Shown here: positions 10,408-39,573 of the stretch, piece by piece
Position numbering within the stretch: the first letter of the stretch is position 1
Layout: every line of letters starts with the position of its first letter
NCBI RefSeq assembly: GCF_034039665.1
Contig: NZ_CP120131.1
Span: 1,784,446-1,848,445 of the forward strand
Length of the DNA: 64,000 nucleotides
Reading direction: 5' to 3'
From: Mammaliicoccus sp. Dog046
GTDB lineage: Bacteria; Bacillota; Bacilli; Staphylococcales; Staphylococcaceae
The notes under the pieces: generated by a model
The model's database searches: none
The model's input: the letters and a program-made list of their open reading frames with translations, nothing else
Told to the model about the DNA's origin: nothing
Translations under genes and position numbers: made by a program

Positions 10408-10525
10408 TGTATCTATTACTCCTTCTATTCCCGTCTATATTTTTTAGAATTAGTTTTATAATTGTAATCCCTATGTATATAAAATACAAGTGTCAATATC
10501 TTCATTAATTTCATTAATACGAAAA

Positions 10526-10553
10526 CGAACAAAGATGACTTCATCTTTGTTCG
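10526..10553 (-). terminator. Terminator of the glycopolymer operon
   Basis: CGAACAAAGATGA (10526-10538) pairs with TCATCTTTGTTCG (10541-10553). Read leftward, the stem is followed by TTTTCG. It lies 8 bases after the stop of the last glycosyltransferase gene. Confidence 0.75.
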
Positions 10554-10561
10554 CTAAATGA

Positions 10562-11887
10562 TTATACTTCTTTATTCAATGAAATGTGTTTAGGTATTGG
10601 AAGAAACTGATTATAAATATTGATGAGTTTCGATCTTTCATTATTCCAATTGTAAATTTCTTTAGCTTGCTTTGTATTTTCACTTAATTGATTTCTTAAC
10701 GCTTCATTTTCTACTAGTTCATTTACAGCTTGAGCAATTGAAGAAGCGTCGTGTGAGTCCACTATTAGTCCTGTTTCTGTTTCTTCGACAACTTTTTTTA
10801 TTTCAGGAAAATCACAACTAATGACTGGTACATGTGCCATCATATATTCAAATAGTTTATTTGAACTTGCTGAATAATGGTTAAAGCATATGTTCTGCAA
10901 CACTTGAAATCCTAGATAAGCTTCACGTGTATATGATGGTAGTTCTTGAAATGGTACTTTATCTAAAAAGTGTATTCTATTAGATTGTTCAGATTGCTCA
11001 CTTTGTTGTTTTAAGGTTTGAGTTAACTTTCCTCCACCTATAAACAATAAATGACCTTCTTTAATTTCATCCATAGCTTGAATTAATAATTCAAGTCCTC
11101 TACCTTGTTGTAAACCACCTTGATAAAGTAAGATTTTTTCATTTTCAGGAATACCTATTTTCTGATGTAAATTAATTTTTGGTTTGTCATTGATATTATA
11201 TTTTTCAGAGTAATTGTATAACGTTTTTGGATAAAAACCATAAATCTTTTCATTATATTGAGCTCGTGTATGATTTTCTACAATCATTTGATTCACAAAC
11301 TTTAACATGAAAGATTCGATTTTTTTAATTCGATCTTGATTATATCCTGTTCGGTCTGATTGAACTTCATGACTATCATAAATTAATGGTCTAGGTTTTA
11401 GTCTTAACTTTGAACAAACAATTGCTTGTGGCAATGTATTTAAATCGTTAGCATGATAAATATCTGCATGCTGGAAATAACCTTTCACAATCATTCTTGT
11501 AATGATTGCGCCATTAATAACCCACTTCCTTACTTTCTTTACTTTTATAACACCTGCTGCAACAATAAGCGCCATGAAATAGGCTGCCATTATTGTGAAG
11601 CTAATATAAAATAAACTTGGTATTATGGCAACTTGTACACCAGCAACGACAAGTAAAAACTTTTTACCATGGTCTTGATAAGCTTGTAATATCCATGGAT
11701 ACCTCTTTACTCTATGAACTCTAAAGGAATCTGATATTTCCTCATACGCTGATATAGCCGCATTTTTCGGATCGTTAATCGCGATTAAATTCACATCATA
11801 TCCTGAATGTGCTAACGTTGTACATTCGCGATTCACTCTCGCATCATTCGTAAAGTGATTCCATACAAACATTGTGACTTTCTTCAT
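10562..11887 (-). CDS. GT4-family glycosyltransferase with membrane segment
   Basis: 441 residues, GT-B fold. The N-terminal domain begins MKKVTMFVWNHFTNDARVN. A hydrophobic hairpin at about residues 80-115 may attach it to the membrane. The C-terminal glycosyl-transferases-group-1 domain has LLYQGGLQQGRGLELLI and the acidic ExxE-like region SSNKLFEYMMAHVPVIS. It is last gene of the leftward operon that includes a TagGH-like exporter, so it probably adds a sugar to the exported polymer or its lipid carrier. Donor and acceptor are unknown. Confidence 0.8.
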   Translation of the reverse strand: MKKVTMFVWNHFTNDARVNRECTTLAHSGYDVNLIAINDPKNAAISAYEEISDSFRVHRVKRYPWILQAYQDHGKKFLLVVAGVQVAIIPSLFYISFTIMAAYFMALIVAAGVIKVKKVRKWVINGAIITRMIVKGYFQHADIYHANDLNTLPQAIVCSKLRLKPRPLIYDSHEVQSDRTGYNQDRIKKIESFMLKFVNQMIVENHTRAQYNEKIYGFYPKTLYNYSEKYNINDKPKINLHQKIGIPENEKILLYQGGLQQGRGLELLIQAMDEIKEGHLLFIGGGKLTQTLKQQSEQSEQSNRIHFLDKVPFQELPSYTREAYLGFQVLQNICFNHYSASSNKLFEYMMAHVPVISCDFPEIKKVVEETETGLIVDSHDASSIAQAVNELVENEALRNQLSENTKQAKEIYNWNNERSKLINIYNQFLPIPKHISLNKEV

Positions 11888-11917
11888 GCTCTAACCTCTT
11901 CCATTTCAATGATTTAT

Positions 11918-12835
11918 TTATAAAATGCCTATTTGGAATAGCAAGATATAGAACCAAGCGACACTAAATACGCCAATCGTTGCTAATAATCCTATTGGTC
12001 TTTTTTCTTTATGAATTAAACTTTCATCTACCTGCTTTTGACGTTGCTGTTGAATTTTAATACGCTTATATTCTAATTGTTCCTTTTTTGATTTCTTTTT
12101 AAGTTTTTGGATTAAATGAACATAACGTCCTATAACATCATTCACTTCACCATAAGCAACCATTTCACCATAATGTATCCAAATCGCTTTTTTACACATT
12201 TTTTTAATTTGTCCCGCTGAATGCGAAACAAAGAAAATGGTTTTACCTTGTGCTTGCAAGTCATGCATTTTATCAATACATTTATTTGAAAATGTTTCAT
12301 CACCTACTGATAAAGCTTCATCTACAATTAATATATCCGGATCAGTATGTATTGCAATGGCAAATCCTAATCTTGACTTCATACCACTTGAATAGGATTT
12401 TAACGGTTGATAAATAAATTCATCTAATTCACTAAATTGAACGATGTCGTCAAATTTATCATTAATCTCTTTCTGAGTCATACCGTGCATTAAACATTTA
12501 TAATGAATATTTTCTTCACCAGTAAAGTCGGGATTTAGTCCTGCACCTATAGCAATTAATGATGGCTTTCCATTCGTATATACTGAACCTGATGATGGTT
12601 CAACTACGCCACCTAATATGTTAGATAACGTTGATTTACCTGAACCATTTAATCCTAGTATGCCGACAGATGTACCTTCCTCAACTTCAAATGATATATC
12701 ATGCAAAGCATAATAAGGTTTTGATTTATAGCTTAGACCAAACGTAAATAAAGAAAGTAATTTATCTTTCCTATTCACATTTAAATCATAAACTTTTGAG
12801 ACATTTTCACATTTTATTTTGTATGTTTTTGTCAT
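11918..12835 (-). CDS. Polysaccharide/teichoic-acid ABC exporter ATPase (TagH-like, second copy)
   Basis: 305 residues. ABC ATPase with Walker A GLNGSGKST (about 60-70), signature YSSGMKSRLGFA (about 155), Walker [15 protein letters not shown] and switch His in FFVSHS. A charged linker of about 50 residues and one C-terminal membrane helix (GLLATIGVFSVAWFYILLF) follow, a TagH extension absent from the shorter paralogue at 33.2 kb. The ATG at 12835 is chosen for the AAGGTGA before it; it overlaps the upstream gene by 29 bases. With the 14.0-kb permease it forms an exporter for the polymer made by this operon. Confidence 0.88.
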   Translation of the reverse strand: MTKTYKIKCENVSKVYDLNVNRKDKLLSLFTFGLSYKSKPYYALHDISFEVEEGTSVGILGLNGSGKSTLSNILGGVVEPSSGSVYTNGKPSLIAIGAGLNPDFTGEENIHYKCLMHGMTQKEINDKFDDIVQFSELDEFIYQPLKSYSSGMKSRLGFAIAIHTDPDILIVDEALSVGDETFSNKCIDKMHDLQAQGKTIFFVSHSAGQIKKMCKKAIWIHYGEMVAYGEVNDVIGRYVHLIQKLKKKSKKEQLEYKRIKIQQQRQKQVDESLIHKEKRPIGLLATIGVFSVAWFYILLFQIGIL

Positions 12836-14030
12836 CTTCTTCACCTTTTCTTAAAAACGTTATTAGCTTTTCAATATTATCTTCCCAAATCAGATGTTCA
12901 TCACGATATTTTTTGGCATTTTCTTGTTTTCTTATCAACGCTTTTTCGTCATTTTTTAATGACACAATTTCATTAACCATTGTGTCAATTGATGCTTGTT
13001 TTCTCGCAAAACCAATATCATATTTTTGAATGAGTGCCTCTGTTGGTCCGCTTATGTTAGAGATTGGTGGTGTACCTACACCGATGGAATCAACTATTTT
13101 TCCTGGCATTACATTCATAAATACATCTGATGATTCTAAAATCGAAATAGATAAATGATGTTTCGCAATTTCAGCAAGACAAGACACGCGATCCATTGGC
13201 TTTTTCACAAAAATATATGAACAATTTTTAACAGCCTTTCTAAATTTGTCTGCTTGTACACCGTAAACGACTGCTGTTACATATATTTGCTTATTATTTA
13301 GCGCAATACAAAGCGCAATTAGTTTATCAACGTCTTGAGCATATCCAATATTGCCAGTATAAATCACACTGAACGATTGATATTTTTGTTCAGTAATCAA
13401 CTCACTTTTAGATAATCCGTTAGGCAAATAAAAGATTGGTATCTTACTTTCTAAATTCTTCTGTATATGTGACCTAAAAGCTTCATTATTGATAACGATT
13501 TTATCTGCAGAATTGTACATTTTCTTCTCTAAGTATTTCAATACAGGCATAAAGAGACTTATATTTACATGCTTTAAACCATGTACGCTATCTGGCCAAA
13601 GATCTCTAATTTCAAGTACGTAAATGGGATGTTTTGCTTTTTTGAAAAAAAGCGTTGCCCATGCAAGAAAAATATTCGGACTAGAAACATAAACAATATC
13701 ATAATCTGCATCATGCATTTTTATAAAGACTCTTAATCTAATATATTGTTCAATATAGTAAATCAGTCGCATAAATAGATTGCTATTTTGTTTGTTTCCA
13801 TGCATTTTCATGCGTATAATTTTCTTTTTTTCTAATTTATTTAAAGTTTCATCAGTAAAATAAGCATCATCTTCAAATAAATTTCTATTTGGATATGTTG
13901 GCTCTGTTGTTAATATTGTTGGATCTGCACCAATTGATTTGAATGCTTTGAACATCATCTTCATTCTATTAGCTGCTGATCCCAGTTCTGGATAAAAATT
14001 TTGTGAAATCATTAATAACTTTTTCGTCAT
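12807..14030 (-). CDS. GT4-family glycosyltransferase (WbuB-like)
   Basis: 407 residues, GT-B fold. The N-terminal domain begins MTKKLLMISQNFYPELGSAA (glycine/serine-rich nucleotide-sugar loop). The C-terminal domain has VIYTGNIGYAQDVDKLI and MPGKIVDSIGVGTPPIS. It resembles WbuB/Cap-type L-fucosamine or amino-sugar transferases of capsule and O-antigen loci; this similarity is from memory of the family. It sits between the permease and ATPase genes of the exporter, so it takes part in making the exported glycan. The substrate is unknown. Confidence 0.8.
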   Translation of the reverse strand: MTKKLLMISQNFYPELGSAANRMKMMFKAFKSIGADPTILTTEPTYPNRNLFEDDAYFTDETLNKLEKKKIIRMKMHGNKQNSNLFMRLIYYIEQYIRLRVFIKMHDADYDIVYVSSPNIFLAWATLFFKKAKHPIYVLEIRDLWPDSVHGLKHVNISLFMPVLKYLEKKMYNSADKIVINNEAFRSHIQKNLESKIPIFYLPNGLSKSELITEQKYQSFSVIYTGNIGYAQDVDKLIALCIALNNKQIYVTAVVYGVQADKFRKAVKNCSYIFVKKPMDRVSCLAEIAKHHLSISILESSDVFMNVMPGKIVDSIGVGTPPISNISGPTEALIQKYDIGFARKQASIDTMVNEIVSLKNDEKALIRKQENAKKYRDEHLIWEDNIEKLITFLRKGEEDDKNIQNKM

Positions 14031-14041
14031 ATTTGAACACC

Positions 14042-14854
14042 CTATAAGTAGTCTAGTAATCTTCTCTTAAATCTTGTATGAATTAATGAACCTATTAGTA
14101 ATAATATGATCGTTATTAACCAAAAATAGATGTGATCATGCCAATGACCGTATACATTAACATGGCCATGTACAAAGGCTGTTCGATAAACACCGATTAA
14201 ATAAGCAAATGGATTTAAACTTGCCAGTCTTTGCAATATGCCATGTGCCTCTTCCATTGCCCAAAATATTGGTGTCATGAAGAATAGCATTCTGATTACA
14301 TTTTGTAATAAGTTCTTTGTGTCTCTCACGATGATAATTAATGTACTCATTATTAATGAAATACCAAAAATGATCGCATATGATGCAACTAAGAAGTAAA
14401 TAAACCAAAAGTAATGCCACCATGGTACATATCCATTGATTAATGAAATGACAAATAATATGGATGAAGTAATCATCAAGTTAATCATATTGTTTGTTAA
14501 AGCGATAGATATGAAAATTGAGGACGGGAATTTCATTTTAGATAGCAGTCCTACATTCGCCTGAATTGCCGTTGCACCAGTGTTAATACCTTGTGAAAGA
14601 AACAACCAAGGAAACAGTCCTGAAATGAGGTGTATTAGAAATGGAACCCCAACGACTTGTGCACTCGCATCTCCTCTTAAACCTAAACCAAATACAAGAT
14701 AGTAAACAGCAACTTGTAGTATCGGTTGTAATATATTCCAAAATACGCCAAGATAATGATTGGCGTATTGACTTTTCATATTATAAATTGCTAACTTAAA
14801 TATTTTAGGTAAATGATTAAATTGTTCTTTAAAGATTTCTGTAACTATCTTCAT
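14042..14854 (-). CDS. Polysaccharide/teichoic-acid ABC exporter permease (TagG-like, second copy)
   Basis: 270 residues, ABC-2 type permease with about six membrane helices and the family phrase QYANHYLGVFWNILQPILQV near the N-terminus. It ends with a basic segment. It pairs with the ATPase at 11.9 kb. A separate TagG at 32.1 kb belongs with the wall teichoic acid genes, so this copy probably serves a different undecaprenyl-linked polymer. Confidence 0.88.
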   Translation of the reverse strand: MKIVTEIFKEQFNHLPKIFKLAIYNMKSQYANHYLGVFWNILQPILQVAVYYLVFGLGLRGDASAQVVGVPFLIHLISGLFPWLFLSQGINTGATAIQANVGLLSKMKFPSSIFISIALTNNMINLMITSSILFVISLINGYVPWWHYFWFIYFLVASYAIIFGISLIMSTLIIIVRDTKNLLQNVIRMLFFMTPIFWAMEEAHGILQRLASLNPFAYLIGVYRTAFVHGHVNVYGHWHDHIYFWLITIILLLIGSLIHTRFKRRLLDYL

Positions 14855-14878
14855 ATTTTAACGACCTACTTGATTATA

Positions 14879-16699
14879 TTATTTTTCAATAAGTTCAAAT
14901 TCTGATGCTGTAGTCCAAGACGACTTTTCAAAATTTTTATTGGCATATATTGAAATAGATTGAGTAGATTCTGGATTTATGTTGATAACAAATCCTTCAT
15001 TACTTAAATCGACTAAGTCCACCACTTGATTATCAAATTCAAAGTATATGAACCCTTTGCCTTGTTTATTTTTATAAAATGTTTTAATTTCAATATTTAA
15101 AATTTGATTTGTCTTATTCGTTAAGTATAGTACTTTTTTAGTTTCACTGCTAAATGCATTCGATAATGCCCTAAATCTTAATCCCTTTTCTTGGTGAACT
15201 TGATAGAAATCTTTCGTTTCAATAGTAAGATTTGCTTTATCTTGCTTTTCTGGTTTGTTCTGATTTTCTAACTCAATAATATAGTCTTCTAACGTTTTCG
15301 TTGAATTCACCTGAAAATAATTTAAAATCGGCCAATTTTTTTGAATAATTAGCTTATGTAATTTATTTTCACTTTTGTCTTCTGGTTGTATGTTTAACAA
15401 TTCAAATAATATGTGCCTTGAATTAATTAAACTAAACACGTCGATATAAGGATCACTTTCTTGAATGATTGCACTATGCCATCCATTCATCCTCGCTTCA
15501 TAATAAAGTATTTCAAATGGATGATAACCTAATTCAATCGTCTTCTCAATCTCATTTCGTTTAATGAAATCTGTTAAGTAATCTTGTACATCACCATTTT
15601 CAAAAGGAAAATCTTTAGCCCATCTTTTTATAAATTGTGCATAAGGTAAAAAATCATCTTTTGAATGGATACTTTTTGGAATAATTGCTTTAGCTAACTC
15701 GAAAATTGTAGATTTAAGATGAATCACATTTTGAAAATCATGATCATAATGATAATAATTAATGAGTTGAATACCGTGACTCGTTTCATAAAGTTCATAA
15801 TCACGCTCAACCTCTTCTGCTAAATCATATGCATCCATATTAAACAGTGTGTGATTCAAGTTTAAATTCTCAGCAATTTGTTTAATCGCCGCTTCATCCA
15901 CTTGATATATCTTCACAGCTTGCTCATTCTGTATCATCTCTAAATCCTTTGTATACGTAAAAAACTTAACTTTATCTAAATGATTTTTCAAAAAGGATAA
16001 TGACACCCGTGAATCATGTCCAGCTGTGATTGAGCATACAATGTCTTTATCAAAACGAAACAAAGCATTCACAGAAGCAACCATTTCATCATAAATTAAA
16101 TTTAATACTTCCTCTGCTGATTTTTCTTGATATGCATTTATTGGGAAAATCCGTTTCACTTTATGATTCGTTAAATCAAATCGTGTGTTCGAATTAAATT
16201 TATAAATATGTTCATATTTACTATAATCTAAAAATCCATTCGATTTATAAGCAATTCTGTTACTTTTCATATTGTATAAATGTTGTAATAATTGCTGCAC
16301 GAGTTCAGAGTGACTTGCATAAATGGATTTCTCCGAATGATAATACATGGATAAAAATGATGTTGCATCATTATAGAAATAGAGATTATCATCCTTCTCT
16401 ATAAAAATGCCATATCTGCCATTAAAGTAACTCATTTCTTCAAGAAACTGAGTAGAATCTAATGAATATGATAATAAACGCGTGAAGATTTCGGAATAAT
16501 TTAAATCACTCTTTTTAGTATGGACAAAATGACCTAATAACAATATTTTCATACCATCAATTGTTATTTGAAATGTCGACATATCTTGTGAATAGTAAAC
16601 ATTAAAATGACTAAATTCAATCTTATCTTGATCATTGAACTGATATTCATGAGGTATGACCATAAAAGATTTATGAAATGGTGCTAATATATTATCCAT
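14879..16699 (-). CDS. Asparagine-synthase-like protein lacking the N-terminal cysteine
   Basis: 606 residues. The central part carries an ATP-pyrophosphatase (PP-loop) motif in CSITAGHDSRVSLSFL (about residues 235-250), as in asparagine synthetase B. The N-terminal ~150 residues resemble the class II glutamine amidotransferase fold (LLLGHFV; NGRYGIFIEKDDNLYFYND), but the protein begins MDNIL, so the catalytic Cys2 needed for glutamine hydrolysis is absent. A C-terminal beta-rich domain of about 130 residues is unlike AsnB. It could amidate a uronic acid with free ammonia, or have another adenylating role in the polymer pathway. The ATG at 16699 follows GGAGGGG. Confidence 0.65.
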   Translation of the reverse strand: MDNILAPFHKSFMVIPHEYQFNDQDKIEFSHFNVYYSQDMSTFQITIDGMKILLLGHFVHTKKSDLNYSEIFTRLLSYSLDSTQFLEEMSYFNGRYGIFIEKDDNLYFYNDATSFLSMYYHSEKSIYASHSELVQQLLQHLYNMKSNRIAYKSNGFLDYSKYEHIYKFNSNTRFDLTNHKVKRIFPINAYQEKSAEEVLNLIYDEMVASVNALFRFDKDIVCSITAGHDSRVSLSFLKNHLDKVKFFTYTKDLEMIQNEQAVKIYQVDEAAIKQIAENLNLNHTLFNMDAYDLAEEVERDYELYETSHGIQLINYYHYDHDFQNVIHLKSTIFELAKAIIPKSIHSKDDFLPYAQFIKRWAKDFPFENGDVQDYLTDFIKRNEIEKTIELGYHPFEILYYEARMNGWHSAIIQESDPYIDVFSLINSRHILFELLNIQPEDKSENKLHKLIIQKNWPILNYFQVNSTKTLEDYIIELENQNKPEKQDKANLTIETKDFYQVHQEKGLRFRALSNAFSSETKKVLYLTNKTNQILNIEIKTFYKNKQGKGFIYFEFDNQVVDLVDLSNEGFVININPESTQSISIYANKNFEKSSWTTASEFELIEK

Positions 16700-16726
16700 A
16701 TTATTCCCCTCCACGCGAATGATTTA

Positions 16727-19372
16727 TCATTGATTAACTTGTAATTGAACTTCTTGCTTTAAATTCTCAATATAACGATTTAAGTCTTGATCTTCAGGTC
16801 TTTGATATTCATCATATAAATGATATATTTCTAAAAATCTTTCTACAGCTTCTTTTCTTTCTTCTGGTTTCACTTTTTCAAGTCTTGGTAAATACCAGCC
16901 TTTAACATAGAAATTAAATCTATGATCTAAATAGGATTGAAGTAAACCATGTTTTTCATAAAACGGTATTCTTTCAATTTCCAATGTGTAATATTTATCA
17001 AATAACTTTTTAGAAATTGAATTCGTTACTGAGCCTGAAACTGCTGCATAGTACATATGAATTACATCTGTAACTGCTTGTACTTTCTTGGAATTAATCA
17101 TTAATTCTTGGAAGAATAATGTATCTTGTCCAGCAGCACCTTCAACCATTTTTATATTATTTCCTTTAATAATCTCTGATTTAATAACTAAAGCTTGAAT
17201 ACTTTGTGCTCTTAAACCACATTTTTTCATATACTTTTTAGGATCATCAATCAATAATTTTCCATCGTTATATTTCATTACAGTACCAGCGTAATTAAAT
17301 AATGCTCTACGTTTATTGTCTTCTTTAATGATATTACCGACAACCATGTCTACATCTTTATTAGATTGAATTTCTTCTAATAATGTCGCATATCCATCTC
17401 CAGTAGCTTCGTTATCTGGATCTAAATAAGTAATATATGGTGTTGAAGCAAGTTCAGCGCCTTTATTTCTTGGTCTTGAGGCACTACCTGAACCTTTTTC
17501 ATATTCAAAGTATACAATTTCAGGGAAACGTCTTCTCAAACGGTTAATGATTGAAATTGTCTCAGAATCAGTACTACCATCATTTACAAATATGATTTCC
17601 ATTTCATTAAATATTGAAGATCTGCGTAAACTTCTCATACACTTATCTTCTAAGTAAGTTCCATTGTTATGAATTGGAATAATCACACTTAATTTTTTCT
17701 TTTTATTATTTTGACCATATAAATCAGACGTATAAATTTCAGATTGATCTAAATTATAACCTTTGCTTGATTGATTCAAATTGAATTGGTCATCAAACAT
17801 ATCACGATGATACATCGTTAAATATTTATCTGCATGTTTATCAACAAATTGATGTGCCTCATGCTGCTTATCTTTCGTTACGAAATCAACATTAGCATAT
17901 TTAAATGCTGATAATAAGTCTTCTAAATAATATTCTTCGTATTCAATTGCGTCTTTCATAAATGTTACAAACGTATAGTCTTTATTTTGCTGTGATAGAT
18001 TTTGCGCTTCTACCGCTTCAAAATCAACATGCAGTTGACGATTTAGTATATCCGTCATTTTATCTGTCATTTGGTCAACGACAACAAGAACTTTATGTTC
18101 CTTCTGACTAGGTTCTATATCAATATAAGTTAATACTTCATCTAGCCTATGGTAAGTTGTGCCATTTCTCATCACACTTCTAATACTCTTCGCTTGCATG
18201 TCTTCTAATTCGTATTCTTTATACTGATTCATAATTGGCGCTACATCGCTTTTATGGTTAATCATAAATACATTAGGAAACTGATTATTAATACCCACTG
18301 AATAATTAGATAATATTAAATTCCCAAACGCCTGTAATTCAAATATTCTATTAGCAAACATTGTTTCTGAATATTTTACTGAGTTGACATTAACTGCCCA
18401 TCGATAAATTTTGTGTAATTTCATTAATTCATTATGATCAACTGGCATTGTTAAAAATGGAATATACTTCATTGGAAATTGATATCTTGCACGTCTTAAT
18501 GGCAAGTTTCTATCAATAATCGTTAAATCATTCTCATTATTAATCAATTCATCAAACATTCTTGCTGATTCTTGATTTCTAACTGGATACTTTTCAGTCC
18601 AACTACCAGCAAATATGACATCATTTTTAAATGATTGATTATACTGACTTCTAGTGCCAATAGGATTATGGTAATGTGGGTTAATTCCAAATTGTAATAC
18701 ATGGACCCTATCGTTTTGACAATATTCTTTATAATCATCTACAACTTCTGCTGCAGAAGTTAAAATAATATCACATTCAGTAGCAATATCTTTGAACAAG
18801 TGGAAATTCACAGGATCTTCTTTTGAGTAAAACACAATTGGAATGTTTAGGTTTTTCGCTTTTTGAATACCATCAATTAGCTTTCTTCGTTTTTCACTAT
18901 TTACTGAAGCTAAACCTGTCCAACTGCCATCAATACCTCTCCATGCTGTAGCAACGATAATGACATCCATATCTTTACTTAAGCTCGTGAATTCACTATC
19001 GATATACACGATATTACCGATATCTTTAAAGGAATTATATAAGAATTCATCTGCAATCAGTCCAACTTTATAATCATTTTTAACAAATACTTTTGATTCA
19101 TCTCCATGATTCAATTGTTCAAGTTGTTGATGATGATTTTCCAAGAAGTCTAATTTCGCTTCTTCGGCTACTTTCTTATAATAATTATGATGATTTGTAT
19201 AGTCTTTAACTTTTTTTAATTTATACAGTCCATACATATAATCTTGTTCGACGATATCCAATACTTCTTCAAGTTGTTCAGCTTTTGACTTATCATCAAA
19301 ATTTACTAATTCATCTTTTGTAGATTGTAATGATTGACTGCGATTTTTGTTAGTTGGTTCATTTGAAGACAT
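16727..19372 (-). CDS. Large two-domain glycosyltransferase (CgeB-like plus GT2)
   Basis: 881 residues. The N-terminal half resembles CgeB/glycosyltransferase-1-like proteins (DVIFAGSWTEKYP; RIFELQAFGNLILSNYSVG). The C-terminal half, from about residue 560, is a GT2 domain beginning KKKLSVIIPIHNNGTYL, with FVNDGSTD and the DPDNE metal-binding region. It ends in a helical charged tail. Such bifunctional enzymes often add two sugars or act as a polymerase. The start overlaps the stop of the upstream gene (TAATG) and AGGAGG lies 8 bases before it. No membrane segment is seen, so it is probably cytoplasmic and works on the membrane face. Confidence 0.82.
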   Translation of the reverse strand: MSSNEPTNKNRSQSLQSTKDELVNFDDKSKAEQLEEVLDIVEQDYMYGLYKLKKVKDYTNHHNYYKKVAEEAKLDFLENHHQQLEQLNHGDESKVFVKNDYKVGLIADEFLYNSFKDIGNIVYIDSEFTSLSKDMDVIIVATAWRGIDGSWTGLASVNSEKRRKLIDGIQKAKNLNIPIVFYSKEDPVNFHLFKDIATECDIILTSAAEVVDDYKEYCQNDRVHVLQFGINPHYHNPIGTRSQYNQSFKNDVIFAGSWTEKYPVRNQESARMFDELINNENDLTIIDRNLPLRRARYQFPMKYIPFLTMPVDHNELMKLHKIYRWAVNVNSVKYSETMFANRIFELQAFGNLILSNYSVGINNQFPNVFMINHKSDVAPIMNQYKEYELEDMQAKSIRSVMRNGTTYHRLDEVLTYIDIEPSQKEHKVLVVVDQMTDKMTDILNRQLHVDFEAVEAQNLSQQNKDYTFVTFMKDAIEYEEYYLEDLLSAFKYANVDFVTKDKQHEAHQFVDKHADKYLTMYHRDMFDDQFNLNQSSKGYNLDQSEIYTSDLYGQNNKKKKLSVIIPIHNNGTYLEDKCMRSLRRSSIFNEMEIIFVNDGSTDSETISIINRLRRRFPEIVYFEYEKGSGSASRPRNKGAELASTPYITYLDPDNEATGDGYATLLEEIQSNKDVDMVVGNIIKEDNKRRALFNYAGTVMKYNDGKLLIDDPKKYMKKCGLRAQSIQALVIKSEIIKGNNIKMVEGAAGQDTLFFQELMINSKKVQAVTDVIHMYYAAVSGSVTNSISKKLFDKYYTLEIERIPFYEKHGLLQSYLDHRFNFYVKGWYLPRLEKVKPEERKEAVERFLEIYHLYDEYQRPEDQDLNRYIENLKQEVQLQVNQ

Positions 19373-20316
19373 TACAGATTCCTCCTCTTTCTCCAACTCC
19401 AGTATTTCGTTTGAATTTTTCCTAATTTAGAATTTCTTAAGTTGTTATATAGTCTTTCATATTGTTTTGTATCTTCTTTTACTGTTGTCTTCTGAAGCGC
19501 AATGTTTTCATTAATCAATCTAACGATCGCTGATTTTGATTCTTTTCTTTCTTCTTGAAAGTTTGTAATCGTATCTAACTGTTCCAGCTCTAAGTCATTA
19601 TATTGTTCGTAATTCATACTCTCTAATTGCGCAATCATTGTATCGTCTATAATATCCGAAAGATTCATCCAATATTTTTTCTTTTTAATCGCTACTCTTG
19701 CTGATCTTGCTTTTAAAAACACCATATTGATATTCACATTTTCAAAATCAAATCTTTCTTGATCTAAATCAAGATCAATCGTCTTATTTAAAGCACTATC
19801 TTGATAAAATACTGTCCCACTATTGATAGAAACTTTCGTATTTAATGTGATTGCACGGTCAATATCTTTTGTATGCACAAAACCTGTAAATGTACCTTTA
19901 TTAAATATTGCTTCTAAAATTTCTCCATTATGCTTATAAATCGCTCTTGATGAGAAATTCTTCTCTTGAAATAGTAAATGGTAATCTACTTTAAAACCAA
20001 GGTCTCTATTTATTTGAGGTGCACTAAAGTCTTTTAAATCTACTCGAATTGTATCAATAGGTTTAGATATCAATTTGATAGAATCTTGGAGTTTAGTCCA
20101 TCCAATAATGTTAGAACCTCGAACAAGTAATCCATATAACTCACTTTCAATTTCTTTAACTGATATTACTTTTAAAGCTTTATTTAAATGGTCAGATACG
20201 TGACCAACCGAAATTTCATCATTATCGACATCAAATATGTCTTGATTCTCTGGTTCTATTAAAATAATTTGAAAGCTTAGTCCGCTTTGAATAAATGGAC
20301 TTTTTACATCAATCAT
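19372..20316 (-). CDS. Hypothetical protein of the glycopolymer operon
   Basis: 314 residues, not recognised. It looks like several beta-rich modules (QIILIEPENQDI; VISVKEIESELYGLLVRGSN; IGWTKLQDSI) that recall SH3/GW-like units, then a C-terminal coiled region rich in Glu/Lys and a basic end (YWSWRKRRNL). No signal peptide or membrane helix. GAGGGG 7 bases before the ATG at 20316 favours that start over 20331. It overlaps the large glycosyltransferase gene by one base, so the two products probably work together, perhaps as a binding or scaffold subunit; this is a guess from context. Confidence 0.55.
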   Translation of the reverse strand: MIDVKSPFIQSGLSFQIILIEPENQDIFDVDNDEISVGHVSDHLNKALKVISVKEIESELYGLLVRGSNIIGWTKLQDSIKLISKPIDTIRVDLKDFSAPQINRDLGFKVDYHLLFQEKNFSSRAIYKHNGEILEAIFNKGTFTGFVHTKDIDRAITLNTKVSINSGTVFYQDSALNKTIDLDLDQERFDFENVNINMVFLKARSARVAIKKKKYWMNLSDIIDDTMIAQLESMNYEQYNDLELEQLDTITNFQEERKESKSAIVRLINENIALQKTTVKEDTKQYERLYNNLRNSKLGKIQTKYWSWRKRRNL

Positions 20317-20335
20317 ATGAAGACCCCTCATTCTT

Positions 20336-21619
20336 TTACTTATTAAATGAATATGCTAGTTCTTTTCCAAAAGTATATAGATTACCGTAATTGTAGTATT
20401 CAACTTGTTCAAACTGTGTTTGCACTACGTTTTTAGTATCAAAAATCACTTTATCTTTCATACCTTCGAAATCTTGATCCATCAATTGTTTAAATTCAGA
20501 ATGATCACTCAATATTAATACTAACGATGCATCTTGAACGGCTTTTTTAATATCTTTTTCAACAAATCCTAATTCAACATGTGGATCGTATGCTTCAACG
20601 ATAATATCTTGTTCTTTTCTTAAGTCATTATAAATATCAAATGCAGGTGATTCTCTTACATCATCAACGTCACCTTTATACGTTAAACCGAACACGACTA
20701 CTTTTTTACCGTTTAATTGTTTTAAAATCTTTTTCGATTCTTCTATAACATAATTTGGCATTGAACGGTTAATACGTCTGCCTTCTTGAATAAGTGTTGT
20801 TGTTTCTGGATCTTTCGCAATAATGAAATATGGATCAACTGCTAAACAATGTCCACCTACACCTGGTCCAGGTAAATGAATATTTACACGTGGATGCTTG
20901 TTTGCCATTTTTATTACATCAAGTACATTAATATCTAAATGGTTACACACCATAGCAAGTTCATTTGCTAATGCGATATTTAAATCACGGTACGTATTCT
21001 CCATCAATTTACTCATTTCTGCTGTTTTAGCATTTGTTTCAATCATTTCACCTTGAACAAATGTTCCATAAACACGTTTACCTGCTTCAACACATTCAGG
21101 TGTAATACCACCAATGATTCTATTATTATGAATTAATTCATGCAGAATCTTACCTGGTAGTACACGTTCAGGACAATGTACTAAGAATATATCTTCACCA
21201 ATCACAAAACCTTGTTCTTCTAAATAAGGTTTAACATGATCGTCTGTTGTACGTGGTGCAATTGTTGATTCCACAATTACTGTATTACCTTTTTCTAAAA
21301 ATGGGACAATCGATTCTACTGCACCCATCACTAATGAAATATCACATGATTCGTATTGATCATCATTATTTGGTGTTGGCACTGCAATGATAAATGTGTC
21401 TGCTTTTTCTGGTTTTAAGCTTGCTTTAAATTTATTTTTAGCTAACACTTCTTCGTATGCTTCTTGTAAACCAGGTTCTTCAATATGAATTTGTCCGTTA
21501 TTTAATTTATCCACTGCTTCTTTATTTATATCCACACCAACAACATCTACGCCGTGCTTAGCAAACATAATAGAAGTTGGTAATCCGATGTAGCCTAATC
21601 CAATAGTAGTTAATTTCAT
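20336..21619 (-). CDS. UDP-N-acetylmannosamine-type dehydrogenase
   Basis: 427 residues, UDP-sugar 6-dehydrogenase family. NAD-binding GLGYIGLPTSIMFA (about 7-20), the loop EEPGLQEAYEEVL, VHCPERVLPGKILHEL, and the catalytic cysteine in GPGVGGHCLAVDPYFI (near residue 257). The pattern GLGYIGLP and CPERVLPG is typical of WecC/CapO-type enzymes oxidising UDP-ManNAc, rather than of UDP-glucose dehydrogenases; UDP-GlcNAc remains possible. It is first gene of the leftward operon and supplies an acidic sugar. It implies that the polymer is teichuronic-acid-like. The ribosome site is AAAGGATGG. Confidence 0.88.
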   Translation of the reverse strand: MKLTTIGLGYIGLPTSIMFAKHGVDVVGVDINKEAVDKLNNGQIHIEEPGLQEAYEEVLAKNKFKASLKPEKADTFIIAVPTPNNDDQYESCDISLVMGAVESIVPFLEKGNTVIVESTIAPRTTDDHVKPYLEEQGFVIGEDIFLVHCPERVLPGKILHELIHNNRIIGGITPECVEAGKRVYGTFVQGEMIETNAKTAEMSKLMENTYRDLNIALANELAMVCNHLDINVLDVIKMANKHPRVNIHLPGPGVGGHCLAVDPYFIIAKDPETTTLIQEGRRINRSMPNYVIEESKKILKQLNGKKVVVFGLTYKGDVDDVRESPAFDIYNDLRKEQDIIVEAYDPHVELGFVEKDIKKAVQDASLVLILSDHSEFKQLMDQDFEGMKDKVIFDTKNVVQTQFEQVEYYNYGNLYTFGKELAYSFNK

Positions 21620-21778: not shown

Positions 21779-21810
21779 GAAAAAGAACTCAATATCAATT
21801 GAGTTCTTCA
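21779..21810 (-). terminator. Terminator overlapping the acyltransferase stop codon
   Basis: AAGAACTCAAT and ATTGAGTTCTT form a stem with four loop bases, followed leftward by TTTTTC. The TGA stop (21797-21795) lies within the loop, so the gene's last codons form half of the terminator. Confidence 0.75.
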
Positions 21811-23780
21811 AAATATTTATCAATATCCTTTTTAATTTTAGGTCCTAATGTTTTTGAGAAGCTATTTGTAAGGTGACCTTTATCCATATATACAATGACA
21901 TTTCCTACTACAGGAACAAACTTACCGTCTTTTTTAAAGTAATTTGTATAATCAACATAGTGTGTATCTTTTGGTTTTTTCTCTAATTGATCCCATTTTG
22001 AAGTTTCCGGTAACCTTGGTTTCGCATTCATTTTCTTTATCGTTTCTTCTTCACCAAACTTATCTAATGTTTCAGGAACATTAAATTGAAACCTTGGGTT
22101 ATCTCTAATAGCAAAAATAGGTGTCTTCGTATTGGTGATATTATCGAATTGTTTAAGTTGTAATGGGTCAATTTGACCATTAATATCATTAGCCGAATCA
22201 GCAGTTGTTACAACTAAATCAATATCTTGCTTCTCTATTTCTTTAATGACATTCTTATTCCACTGTTCACAATCTTTGGCACTATCTTTCGTTTTTAATT
22301 CACAACCACTTTTCGTCATACTTAATATTCTATAATTACTATCTTTGGCTGCTGATTGTAAAGCACCTAACCAATGTTGCGCATGAGAACTTCCGACTAA
22401 TGCAATCGTCTTATCATAATTCTTTTTATGTCCATATGTTCCGACAAGTACTTTAGATTCTCCAATTTTTTGGTGTACTTGATCTCTCGTTGAATCTGGA
22501 GACTCATTTCTTATTTCTGAGAATTCAGGTATTGCTTTAACACCTGTATTTACACTGACACCTTTTTCAGTTGCCATTGCACCTGGATAATCTTTACTTA
22601 ATGCTGTTTTTTCCTTTTCAAATGGATTATTGAATAATATGAAGTATATCGATGCTAATGCAATTAGATTAATCAACAATCCTGTACCTAGTTTTTTGAA
22701 AGCTTTCTTATTAGAAGAAGCACTTCGAATTGGTGTCTCAATAAACTTAGTCATGATATAAGATAATAACCAAGATAGTAATATCATACCTACACCTAAA
22801 ATAATACCTGGTCTACCATTATTATGATATTGCCAGAAGGATAATATCACCCAATGCCATAAATACAATCCAAATGATAATCCACCTAATTTAACCATAA
22901 GCTTTGAACCGAGTATCGATTTCACACCAAATTTTGTTTCATAATTTCCAGATAATAATATAAACACGGCACAAAGCATTGGCCATAGCGCGATATATCC
23001 TGGGAACATCGTTGATACATTGAAAATAATACCCGTCAGTATCAAGCCAGCTAAACCAATCCAACCAATGATACTCGCAATGAATTGGTTGATTTTTATT
23101 TTAGATAAATTCATTGCTAATAATCCACCTAATGAGAATTCCCACACGCGAGTAAATGTATGAAAATATGCCCACGGTTGATTTACATTTGTTAAATAAA
23201 CAGAATATGTGAATGACGCGATAAATATACTAGCTAAACAAATATTGATTAGTTTAATCACATCTAACTTACTGTATTTCTTGAAAATCATAAAAATAAA
23301 AGCAAACAGTAAAAACCAAATGATATAGAACTGTCCTTGAATAGACATTGCCCAAAAATGTTCTATCGGTGTTTTCATTTGGTCTTTATTTAAATAGTCA
23401 GTACTTGAAAAAGCCAATTGCCAATTCTGATAATAAAATAAAGAAGCAATCGTTTCTTTAATCGTTTTACCTAAAATAGATTGTGGTAACCAAATAAAGC
23501 TTAATAAGACGGTTATAAATAAAACCGTTAATACTGAAGGGAATAATCGCTTGATCAAACCTTGAATATAAGGTAAGAACTTAAATTCACCTTCTCTATT
23601 GAATCTGGAAATAATAGAAGTTGTTATTAAAAATCCAGAAATAACGAAGAATACATCTACACCTCCGGAAACCTTGCCAAACCAAATATGATATATCGCA
23701 ACTAATAATGCTGCAACTACTCTCAAGCCTTCTATTTCAGGTCTAAATTTCTTTTCTATATCTATTGTCTTCATCTGCAT
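21795..23780 (-). CDS. OatA-like membrane O-acyltransferase
   Basis: 661 residues. The N-terminal acyltransferase-3 domain of about ten membrane helices starts EGLRVVAALLVAIYHIWFG, with the conserved HFWAMSIQGQFYIIW. A C-terminal extracytoplasmic SGNH esterase-like domain has the nucleophile in VGSSHAQHW and the Asp-His pair in YMDKGHLT. This architecture transfers acetyl groups to peptidoglycan MurNAc (OatA) or to surface glycans. Location between glycopolymer genes makes either substrate possible. It is a separate transcription unit: terminators flank it on both sides. AAAGGAG lies 8 bases before the ATG. Confidence 0.85.
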   Translation of the reverse strand: MQMKTIDIEKKFRPEIEGLRVVAALLVAIYHIWFGKVSGGVDVFFVISGFLITTSIISRFNREGEFKFLPYIQGLIKRLFPSVLTVLFITVLLSFIWLPQSILGKTIKETIASLFYYQNWQLAFSSTDYLNKDQMKTPIEHFWAMSIQGQFYIIWFLLFAFIFMIFKKYSKLDVIKLINICLASIFIASFTYSVYLTNVNQPWAYFHTFTRVWEFSLGGLLAMNLSKIKINQFIASIIGWIGLAGLILTGIIFNVSTMFPGYIALWPMLCAVFILLSGNYETKFGVKSILGSKLMVKLGGLSFGLYLWHWVILSFWQYHNNGRPGIILGVGMILLSWLLSYIMTKFIETPIRSASSNKKAFKKLGTGLLINLIALASIYFILFNNPFEKEKTALSKDYPGAMATEKGVSVNTGVKAIPEFSEIRNESPDSTRDQVHQKIGESKVLVGTYGHKKNYDKTIALVGSSHAQHWLGALQSAAKDSNYRILSMTKSGCELKTKDSAKDCEQWNKNVIKEIEKQDIDLVVTTADSANDINGQIDPLQLKQFDNITNTKTPIFAIRDNPRFQFNVPETLDKFGEEETIKKMNAKPRLPETSKWDQLEKKPKDTHYVDYTNYFKKDGKFVPVVGNVIVYMDKGHLTNSFSKTLGPKIKKDIDKYFEELN

Positions 23781-32146: not shown

Positions 32147-32950
32147 TTAAATGAAATCAGCAAATCTTTGTCTGAATTTAACATGTAGAATTGAACCTAC
32201 TACAAAGAATAATAACGTCACGCAAACATTATATAATGCTAATTGCCAATGATCTATGATATACCAATTATTATATAAAATTGCAGCTCTATATCCTTCT
32301 GCAAAGAAGAAGACTGGATTTAATTTCATAATCATTTCTACAACAGATCCCTTGTCTGGAATCCATAAGATTGGTGATAAATAGAATAACATTCTTAACA
32401 ATGCTTGCATCGCCATTTGCGTATCTCGAATGAGCACGCCAAGTGTTGATGTTAATAATGAAACTGAAAATGCAAATATATAAACGAACGGCATTAATAT
32501 GATTAATTGTATAACATAAATTGATGGTACGATACCTGATGCCATACATATAAGCATAATCACGATCACTAATATAATATGGCCATAAAATCTACTTGTT
32601 AAAATATAAGCTGGTATTGCGGACAACGGGAAGTTCATCTTGGCTACTTGATTAAATCTTGAACCAATCGATTTCGTTCCTTCAAGTACACCTTGGTTCA
32701 CAAAGAACCACATACTAATTCCGACTAACAAATATAAAATAAATGGTACGCCATCTATTGGAGCATTTTGTCTAATACCAAATCCAAAGGCAAACCAATA
32801 TACAAAGATTTGTAAAATAGGATTAATAAGTTCCCACGCTAGCCCAAGATAATTATCATGGTTAGATATTTTCAACTGGAACTGTGCCAACCTTTGTATT
32901 AAATAAAAGTTTTTTAAGTGCTCTTTAATCACTGTAAATACAGCATGCAT
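32147..32950 (-). CDS. tagG: Wall teichoic acid exporter permease
   Basis: 267 residues, ABC-2 permease with about six membrane helices and the family phrase NHDNYLGLAWELINPILQI. It exports lipid-linked teichoic acid with TagH, encoded divergently at 33.2 kb. The ATG at 32950 gives a protein of usual length (about 270) and has GAGAGTG upstream; the longer frame to 32986 adds a non-conserved polar extension. The neighbours tarB and tarX make the exported polymer. It is distinct from the second permease at 14.0 kb. Confidence 0.93.
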   Translation of the reverse strand: MHAVFTVIKEHLKNFYLIQRLAQFQLKISNHDNYLGLAWELINPILQIFVYWFAFGFGIRQNAPIDGVPFILYLLVGISMWFFVNQGVLEGTKSIGSRFNQVAKMNFPLSAIPAYILTSRFYGHIILVIVIMLICMASGIVPSIYVIQLIILMPFVYIFAFSVSLLTSTLGVLIRDTQMAMQALLRMLFYLSPILWIPDKGSVVEMIMKLNPVFFFAEGYRAAILYNNWYIIDHWQLALYNVCVTLLFFVVGSILHVKFRQRFADFI

Positions 32951-33115
32951 GAATATCACTCTCTCGCTTCGACATTTATTACTCATTCAATAATATAGCA
33001 TCATTTCACATAAGATGATATATTTATCTTTAGGTAAATCTGATAATTATAGAACATATTTAATTTACATGATTCCAACAAAATTTACAATAAATTTACT
33101 AAACTCTCAAAATAA

Positions 33116-33952
<837 letters not shown>

Positions 33953-38289: not shown

Positions 38290-39573
38290 ATGAAGAAATT
38301 TTCAAAGATAGGTTTACTACTACTGTCAATCGTTCTTATGATTCTTCCTGTAGTATTTGGATTAATGCTTTATCTTGAAACAAAAGGTGCAATTAAAGAC
38401 TCTTTTCTTGATTCAAATAAAAGCAAATCATCTTTACGAGATAAACCAGTAGATCCAAGTTTAAATCACGTTTCTGTACTATTTCTCGGCGTAGATGATA
38501 GTAATTCAAGACGTGAAGGTGGACAAAAGGCAAGTCAATCACGAACAGACGCAATGATTTATACAACTTTTAATAAAGATAAAAAACAAATCCGCATGGT
38601 CAGCATTCCGCGTGACACGTTAAGTTATATTCCAGCAGTTAAATACTACGACAAAATAACACACGCACATGCAATTGACGGTCCTAAAGGTTCAATGGAA
38701 AGTGTCGAATCTACATTAAATGTTCCAGTTGATTTTTATGCAAGAATTAATATGGAAGCTTTCGTTGAAGTTGTAGACGAACTTGGTGGTATTGAATATG
38801 ATGTTCCATTTAATTTAAATGAACCGAACACTGAGGACAAAGGTAGAATCAAAGTTAAAAAAGGTAAACAAACATTAACAGGTGACGAAGCACTTGCAGT
38901 CGTTCGATCAAGAAAACAAGATTCAGATTTAGAACGCGGTAAACGTCAAATGGAAATGATAAGAGCCATTATAAGAAAAGCGCAAGAAACGAATTCAATC
39001 AATAAATTAGATGATTTAGTTAAGATCGTTGGTAAAAACGCTAAACATAATTTAACATTCGAAAATATTCAAACATTAGCAACAACATATTCATCAAGTA
39101 AAGTTAAAATTAAAACAGAACAAATTAGTGGTACAGATGCTAATTTCAATGGTGTTTACTTCTTCAATCCTGATTTAGATAACTTATTACAAGTATCAAA
39201 CACATTAAGAAAAGACTTAAAACTACCAAAAACGAAAAAATCACAAATGATGAACTACATGATGTTACGTGAATATGGTGATTTAGTACCTTATATCGAA
39301 GTATCAAAGAAAAGCTTAAATAAAGGCCAATCTAATACTAATGAAATCGATACAACTGAGACAGTAGAACCTGCTGTGCAGCCTGATACTGAAGAATCTT
39401 CACAACAAGCACCAGTTGAACAACCTCAACAACAACCGGTAGAACAAGCACCATCAGAAGAAGCACCTACGCAAGAAGCACCAGCACAGCAACCAGCAGC
39501 ACAAGAACAACCAGCGCAAGATAATCAAGCAGTTGATCCAAATGCACAACAACCTGGTTCAGATGTATACTAG
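38290..39573 (+). CDS. LytR-CpsA-Psr (LCP) wall polymer ligase
   Basis: 427 residues. One N-terminal membrane helix (LLLLSIVLMILPVVFGLML) precedes an extracellular LCP domain: VLFLGVDD, SQSRTDAMIYTTFN with the conserved Arg-Asp, MVSIPRDTLSY, ITHAHAIDGP and VRSRKQDSDLERGKRQ. It transfers teichoic acid or another glycopolymer from its lipid carrier to peptidoglycan MurNAc. The last 80 residues are a Gln/Pro/Ala/Glu-rich low-complexity tail, probably disordered within the wall. It occupies the position of an LCP gene near atl in S. aureus (from memory) and is next to tarA here. Confidence 0.9.
   Translation: MKKFSKIGLLLLSIVLMILPVVFGLMLYLETKGAIKDSFLDSNKSKSSLRDKPVDPSLNHVSVLFLGVDDSNSRREGGQKASQSRTDAMIYTTFNKDKKQIRMVSIPRDTLSYIPAVKYYDKITHAHAIDGPKGSMESVESTLNVPVDFYARINMEAFVEVVDELGGIEYDVPFNLNEPNTEDKGRIKVKKGKQTLTGDEALAVVRSRKQDSDLERGKRQMEMIRAIIRKAQETNSINKLDDLVKIVGKNAKHNLTFENIQTLATTYSSSKVKIKTEQISGTDANFNGVYFFNPDLDNLLQVSNTLRKDLKLPKTKKSQMMNYMMLREYGDLVPYIEVSKKSLNKGQSNTNEIDTTETVEPAVQPDTEESSQQAPVEQPQQQPVEQAPSEEAPTQEAPAQQPAAQEQPAQDNQAVDPNAQQPGSDVY

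Follow-up and report, generated by a model that had tools for sequence, protein, structure and literature searches.

In Escherichia coli O9a and Klebsiella O3/O5, the protein WbdD has a catalytic N-terminus and a coiled coil that sets the chain length of the polysaccharide, while its C-terminal region recruits the dual-glycosyltransferase polymerase WbdA, and export is by an ATP-binding cassette (ABC) transporter (PMC11231755, PMC3482155). The WbdD of serotype O8 has a methyltransferase only (PMC11231755, PMC3482155), and in ORF6 of O7 and WbbB of Klebsiella O12 the terminator, coil and glycosyltransferase parts are found in one chain (PMC11231755). Here we describe an operon from a Mammaliicoccus, contained in a 64,000-nucleotide stretch (the window) of its 2.57-Mb single-contig genome. 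The operon has eight genes, designated A to H, and runs leftward from position 21619 to 10562 of the window. It is considered probable that the whole system makes a wall polymer containing N-acetylmannosaminuronic acid (ManNAcA), exported by an ABC transporter, with protein B acting as a coil-and-tail adaptor of the polymerase C. The more limited statement, that this is a pathway for synthesis and ABC export of an acidic polymer for the cell wall, can be made with considerable confidence, while a role for B in chain length is put forward only tentatively. The new point is protein B, which carries a coil-and-tail module that accompanies this pathway in Gram-positive bacteria. The literature searched contained nothing specific on this locus, although Gram-positive cases may already be covered in a 2019 survey (Mann, Kimber and Whitfield, cited in PMC11231755).

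A preliminary description of the DNA had proposed eight leftward genes with overlaps or short gaps, and this was borne out. All eight open reading frames (ORFs) were found on the reverse strand, as are the operon features given below, and the intergenic distances from A to H are 4, -25, 12, 24, 11, -38 and 30 bp. The tight spacing, the terminator-like hairpins at both ends (21782..21809 upstream of A and 10524..10555 directly after H, each a consensus match only) and the conservation of the gene set in relatives show that the operon is real.

Protein B and its C-terminal tail

Protein B (319 residues, 19372..20331) had been described simply as unknown, and proves to be the most informative part of the operon. 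Profile searches with Pfam and NCBIfam gave a weak GW/SH3 match and no catalytic domain. The AlphaFold2 model (mean predicted local distance difference test, pLDDT, of 84) consists of three small β modules, a helix of 54 residues and a final short helix. The β part (residues 14-227, 19651..20292) is like the GW modules found in Listeria autolysin and in InlB, and like the TagH SH3-like domain, with Foldseek matches to 5jqc (E = 4.4e-8) and 1m9s (E = 3.8e-5), and VIA Z 10.2 with a large root mean square deviation across several modules. The model thus predicts a tandem SH3-like GW fold. No signal peptide was evident by eye from the sequence, no predictor being used. The long helix, a proposed coiled coil, occupies residues 246-299 (19435..19596, pLDDT 68-85) and is followed by the conserved tail, NSKLGKIQTKYW, at residues 300-319 (19375..19434), which has the pattern NSKLGKxQ/TxKYW. 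The B gene overlaps the next gene, C, by 25 bp.

Protein C (889 residues, 16727..19396) is a putative dual glycosyltransferase and the proposed polymerase. It had been called a CgeB/GT2 enzyme; Pfam and NCBIfam recognize it as a GT2 protein (residues 570-697, 17306..17689, PF00535 E = 3.2e-17), while the CgeB-type part (Glyco_trans_1_2) is found only below threshold.

A profile of the tail was searched against 79 loci (3332 ORFs), which were picked by their C gene and not by the tail. There were 66 matches, with 62 directly upstream of C, one directly downstream, two fused and one elsewhere, and the tail therefore adjoins or is fused to C in 65 of the 66. The number of matches is not independent, because the profile was built partly from the same proteins, but their placement is. 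The tail is present in 39 of 108 Staphylococcaceae genomes, which are the same 39 that carry gene H (E ≤ 1e-80), and include all eight of the genus Mammaliicoccus. H (10562..11887) is a GT4 glycosyltransferase and serves as the marker of the core pathway. The hypergeometric value for this co-occurrence is 2.6e-30, a figure that would hold only for independent genomes, and these are not independent. In a wider scan, 33 of 299 Bacilli genomes contained the tail. Inspection of 22 tail loci from the two scans placed most of them beside recognizable pathway genes, some lacking C.

The head that precedes the helix is interchangeable. It is GW/SH3 in most Staphylococcales, an S-adenosylmethionine-dependent methyltransferase in 17 of the 33 related tail proteins sampled, and a GT4 glycosyltransferase in two of the tail proteins examined; in several genera there are tail proteins of 88-98 residues with no head at all. 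By a rough measure, the stretch before the tail that is free of Pro or Gly-Gly is anywhere between about 16 and 350 residues long. Locus L193 contains a natural fusion of tail and C, and a single chain of 1347 residues in an uncultured Eubacteriaceae (L196) unites a methyltransferase-like motif with coil, tail and C. Across the sequences compared, coil and tail are the only invariant part of B. No correlation was seen by eye between a methyltransferase on B and a long C-terminal domain in the ATPase.

Two further observations concern proteins of this kind. The genes at L217:37-1677, L142:16209-17879 and L071:7746-9362 encode GT4 proteins with this tail at their end, and C was not found in the genomes of L071 and L217. 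Loci L149, L151 and L172 (Salinicoccus, Jeotgalicoccus) have duplicated B-C gene pairs, and B-like proteins in which a long coil is present but the tail is missing.

Layout compared with WbdD and a proposed role of B

The operon has in common with the WbdD-WbdA-Wzm/Wzt system an ABC-transporter pathway (E and G here), and a putative dual-module glycosyltransferase next to a protein that has a conserved C-terminal region and, by proposal, a coiled coil. The methyltransferase of O8 WbdD has its parallel in the Bacillaceae coil protein, and L196 joins a methyltransferase-like part, coil, tail and two glycosyltransferase parts in the manner of WbbB and ORF6, although its glycosyltransferases are of different families and it is a relative rather than the window protein. 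The operon differs from the WbdD system in being Gram-positive and probably directed to a ManNAcA polymer, and B differs from WbdD in having GW/SH3 modules, no kinase or methyltransferase, and a short helix. The relatives of B reproduce the WbdD, WbbB and ORF6 layouts, which is a likeness of layout only; B itself is not classed as a WbdD because it lacks a catalytic head.

By analogy, and from the adjacency, overlap and fusion of their genes, B would hold C, its tail either binding C or bringing it to the membrane. The helix would serve as a spacer and the GW/SH3 modules would contact the growing chain, and B could thereby affect the length of the chain in the way that WbdD acts with WbdA. A bolder version is that the operon belongs to a widespread Gram-positive counterpart of the O-antigen terminator/ruler assembly, in which a coil-and-tail adaptor with swappable heads (methyltransferase, glycosyltransferase or cytosolic GW/SH3 polymer sensor) holds a dual-glycosyltransferase polymerase and sets or caps the length of an ABC-exported ManNAcA wall polymer. 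We regard this as less likely than not.

Several points weigh against B as an adaptor that controls length. Its helix is short, at 54 residues, and the model is of a monomer. The B of the window has no catalytic domain and so gives no direct support for termination by B, and the PDB sequence matches listed for a methyltransferase-type relative did not include WbdD. The ATPase G ends in a hydrophobic segment and has no carbohydrate-binding domain, unlike the Wzt of O9a. The overlap of tail and H in 39 of 39 genomes is uncorrected for shared ancestry, and C is not the sole partner of a B-type tail, because some tail proteins occur in loci without C. Finally, the hydrophobic moment of the tail was no better than that of shuffled sequences in five of six tails, and on this ground an amphipathic membrane helix was rejected for the tail.

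A simpler explanation is a plain ABC-exported ManNAcA pathway in which B anchors the polymerase to the membrane or to a complex, with GW/SH3 binding substrate and no setting of length. The absence of a catalytic domain from B, the invariance of coil and tail alone, and the proteins of 88-98 residues with no further domain in several genera all suit an anchor; a methyltransferase at the far end of the helix, as borne by about half of the sampled relatives, fits a terminator better. The probability of the anchor falls just short of even. If the adaptor proposal is true, the tail of B offers a conserved and removable part for a direct test of chain-length control in wall polymers of the staphylococcal family, and GW/SH3 modules, known as wall-binding parts on the outside, would also have a role inside the cell.

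The probable acidic sugar, its possible modification and export

The proposed polysaccharide would be assembled intracellularly, attached to a lipid carrier, with A providing the uridine diphosphate (UDP) derivative of ManNAcA, F and H priming the chain and C polymerizing it. The completed chain would be exported by E and G. The preliminary assignments of a UDP-N-acetylmannosamine (UDP-ManNAc)-type dehydrogenase (A), a TagG-like permease (E), two GT4 enzymes (F and H) and a TagH-like ATPase with a membrane tail (G) were all confirmed by Pfam and NCBIfam, and for the membrane tail a Kyte-Doolittle plot showed a hydrophobic C-terminal segment. E (14042..14854) is an ABC-2 permease of TagG/Wzm type (PF01061 E = 2.7e-11), F (12807..14030) is a WcaI-like GT4 enzyme, and G (11918..12844, 308 residues) has its hydrophobic segment at residues 284-302 (11939..11995, maximum 2.2).

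A (20336..21619) is a three-domain dehydrogenase that is nearest to the characterized UDP-ManNAc enzymes. It matches Staphylococcus aureus Cap5O (PDB 3ojl) over its full length (E = 1e-215). It scores 408.6 bits with the UDP-ManNAc dehydrogenase model, short of the 459 set as cut-off for the WecC equivalog, and 145 bits with the TuaD model, for which the cut-off is 700. There are two UDP-N-acetylglucosamine (UDP-GlcNAc) 2-epimerase genes elsewhere in the genome. In view of these genes and the Cap5O match, the most likely product is UDP-ManNAcA, and ManNAcA is the likely acidic sugar of the polymer. The claim of a distinct exporter-linked polymer with an acidic sugar is upheld by the same evidence. 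Heparinase II/III-type proteins are encoded within four homologous operons (L136, L143, L160 and L187), and such lyases would fit a uronic-acid polymer.

The S. aureus Cap5/Cap8 capsule resembles the expected product in its Cap5O-type dehydrogenase and in likely attachment by LCP proteins. The capsule is made by a Wzx/Wzy pathway, whereas the operon has ABC export and other glycosyltransferases. Bacillus subtilis tua and S. aureus Ssc (PMC11841062) share GT4 enzymes with the operon, and here too a phosphate-free polymer is expected, but they use a flippase and a Wzy-type polymerase, and TuaD is not of the Cap5O type. Among the eight operon proteins Pfam and NCBIfam found neither a flippase nor a Wzy-type polymerase. 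The label teichuronic-acid-like, in its Tua sense, is therefore rejected: there is no Wzx/Wzy and no TuaD-type dehydrogenase, A giving much higher scores with UDP-ManNAc models, and the exporter is an ABC transporter.

The chemistry is a separate matter. The teichuronic acid of Micrococcus luteus is a polymer of glucose and ManNAcA (PMC3005890), and the polymer made here could resemble it. The operon might accordingly direct a second wall polymer of this teichuronic type, perhaps made under phosphate shortage; the UDP-ManNAc dehydrogenase points in this direction, as do Kocuria and Arthrobacter loci that encode distantly related versions of A, C, E and G. The M. luteus synthetase, which has ManNAcA in its polymer in common with the operon, is set apart by its subunits of 52.5 and 54 kDa, compared to the 889 residues of C (PMC3005890), and we consider this explanation unlikely.

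D (611 residues, 14879..16714) is the most variable gene, and would carry out a type-specific, ATP-dependent modification. It had been described as asparagine-synthase-like. The PP-loop part of this stands: the loop CSITAGHDSR (residues 227-236, 16007..16036) belongs to a pattern T-G/A-G-x-D-S-R/K kept in 17 D homologues. The family assignment is less firm, as D has no Pfam match above threshold and PF00733 covers the PP-loop region alone, below threshold (E = 0.041). D lacks the N-terminal Cys of a glutaminase domain, and no such Cys is conserved across the 17 homologues. A standard asparagine synthase was rejected, there being no PDB match, and GATase_7 in just one of 22 members. Within the genus D has 53-59% identity, compared to mostly 76-94% for the other operon genes, and two Mammaliicoccus genomes that keep the remaining operon genes, one of them that of M. 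lentus, lack it. One candidate modification is amidation, as in the amidated uronic acid suggested earlier; another is the joining of an amino compound through an amide link. The heparinase II/III protein at L187:12747-17120 has a stretch in common with D, perhaps a shared β domain near the D C-terminus.

Proposed wall attachment, neighbouring genes and relatives

Separate tag genes were confirmed at 25-38 kb of the window. At 32-34 kb there are tagG and tagH, as first described, though they are divergently transcribed (32147-33952), and this TagH (274 residues) is without the SH3-like C-terminal domain that B. subtilis TagH has and that the β part of B resembles. The operon adjoins tag genes in Mammaliicoccus, and a homologue of C has a GT2 part similar in fold to TarP/TarS, both of which might suggest that the operon decorates ordinary wall teichoic acid and makes no polymer of its own. 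This is very unlikely: the operon owns a full ABC exporter besides tagG/tagH, and in many other species it is away from tag genes, beside LCP. Its transporter is TagG/TagH-like, as in wall teichoic acid export, but the operon has no polyol-phosphate polymerase.

Enzymes of the LCP family join polymers to peptidoglycan (PMC12220298). In the window there is an LCP ligase at 38290..39573 on the forward strand, whose homologue adjoins the operon in most Staphylococcus and Macrococcus loci, and the exported chain would most likely be attached to the wall by such an enzyme. The LCP gene is followed, up to 44944, by DUF2538, a GNAT acetyltransferase and a 1364-residue ORF in succession, 17 kb from the operon here; homologues of these genes flank it in many Staphylococcus and Macrococcus genomes. 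On the other side, an AT3-SGNH acyltransferase (21795..23780, reverse strand) adjoins A in all Mammaliicoccus loci examined, and O-acylation of a wall polymer is possible.

Some systems that glycosylate proteins or spore surfaces contain CgeB-like glycosyltransferases, and on this basis the operon might glycosylate a surface protein. Pfam and NCBIfam found no oligosaccharyltransferase among the eight proteins, and the LCP neighbour and the heparinase lyases in relatives suggest a free or wall-bound polymer, making protein glycosylation extremely improbable.

A search for the gene set in other Staphylococcaceae, as had been proposed, showed it again, in a partly rearranged form, in Macrococcus/Macrococcoides and in some species of Staphylococcus, among them S. 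pseudintermedius, S. intermedius and S. massiliensis. The operon is therefore not a chance arrangement. C homologues are also found in a neighbouring family of the order (named records being Salinicoccus and Jeotgalicoccus), and a module of F, H, A, E, G and C, in variable order, occurs in many Bacillaceae, with more distant versions in Clostridia and Micrococcaceae. One Mammaliicoccus genome (G019, locus L053) has both its C gene and the adjacent acyltransferase gene split into two ORFs each (11144-13777 and 16255-18222), which may reflect frameshifts, sequencing errors or decay.

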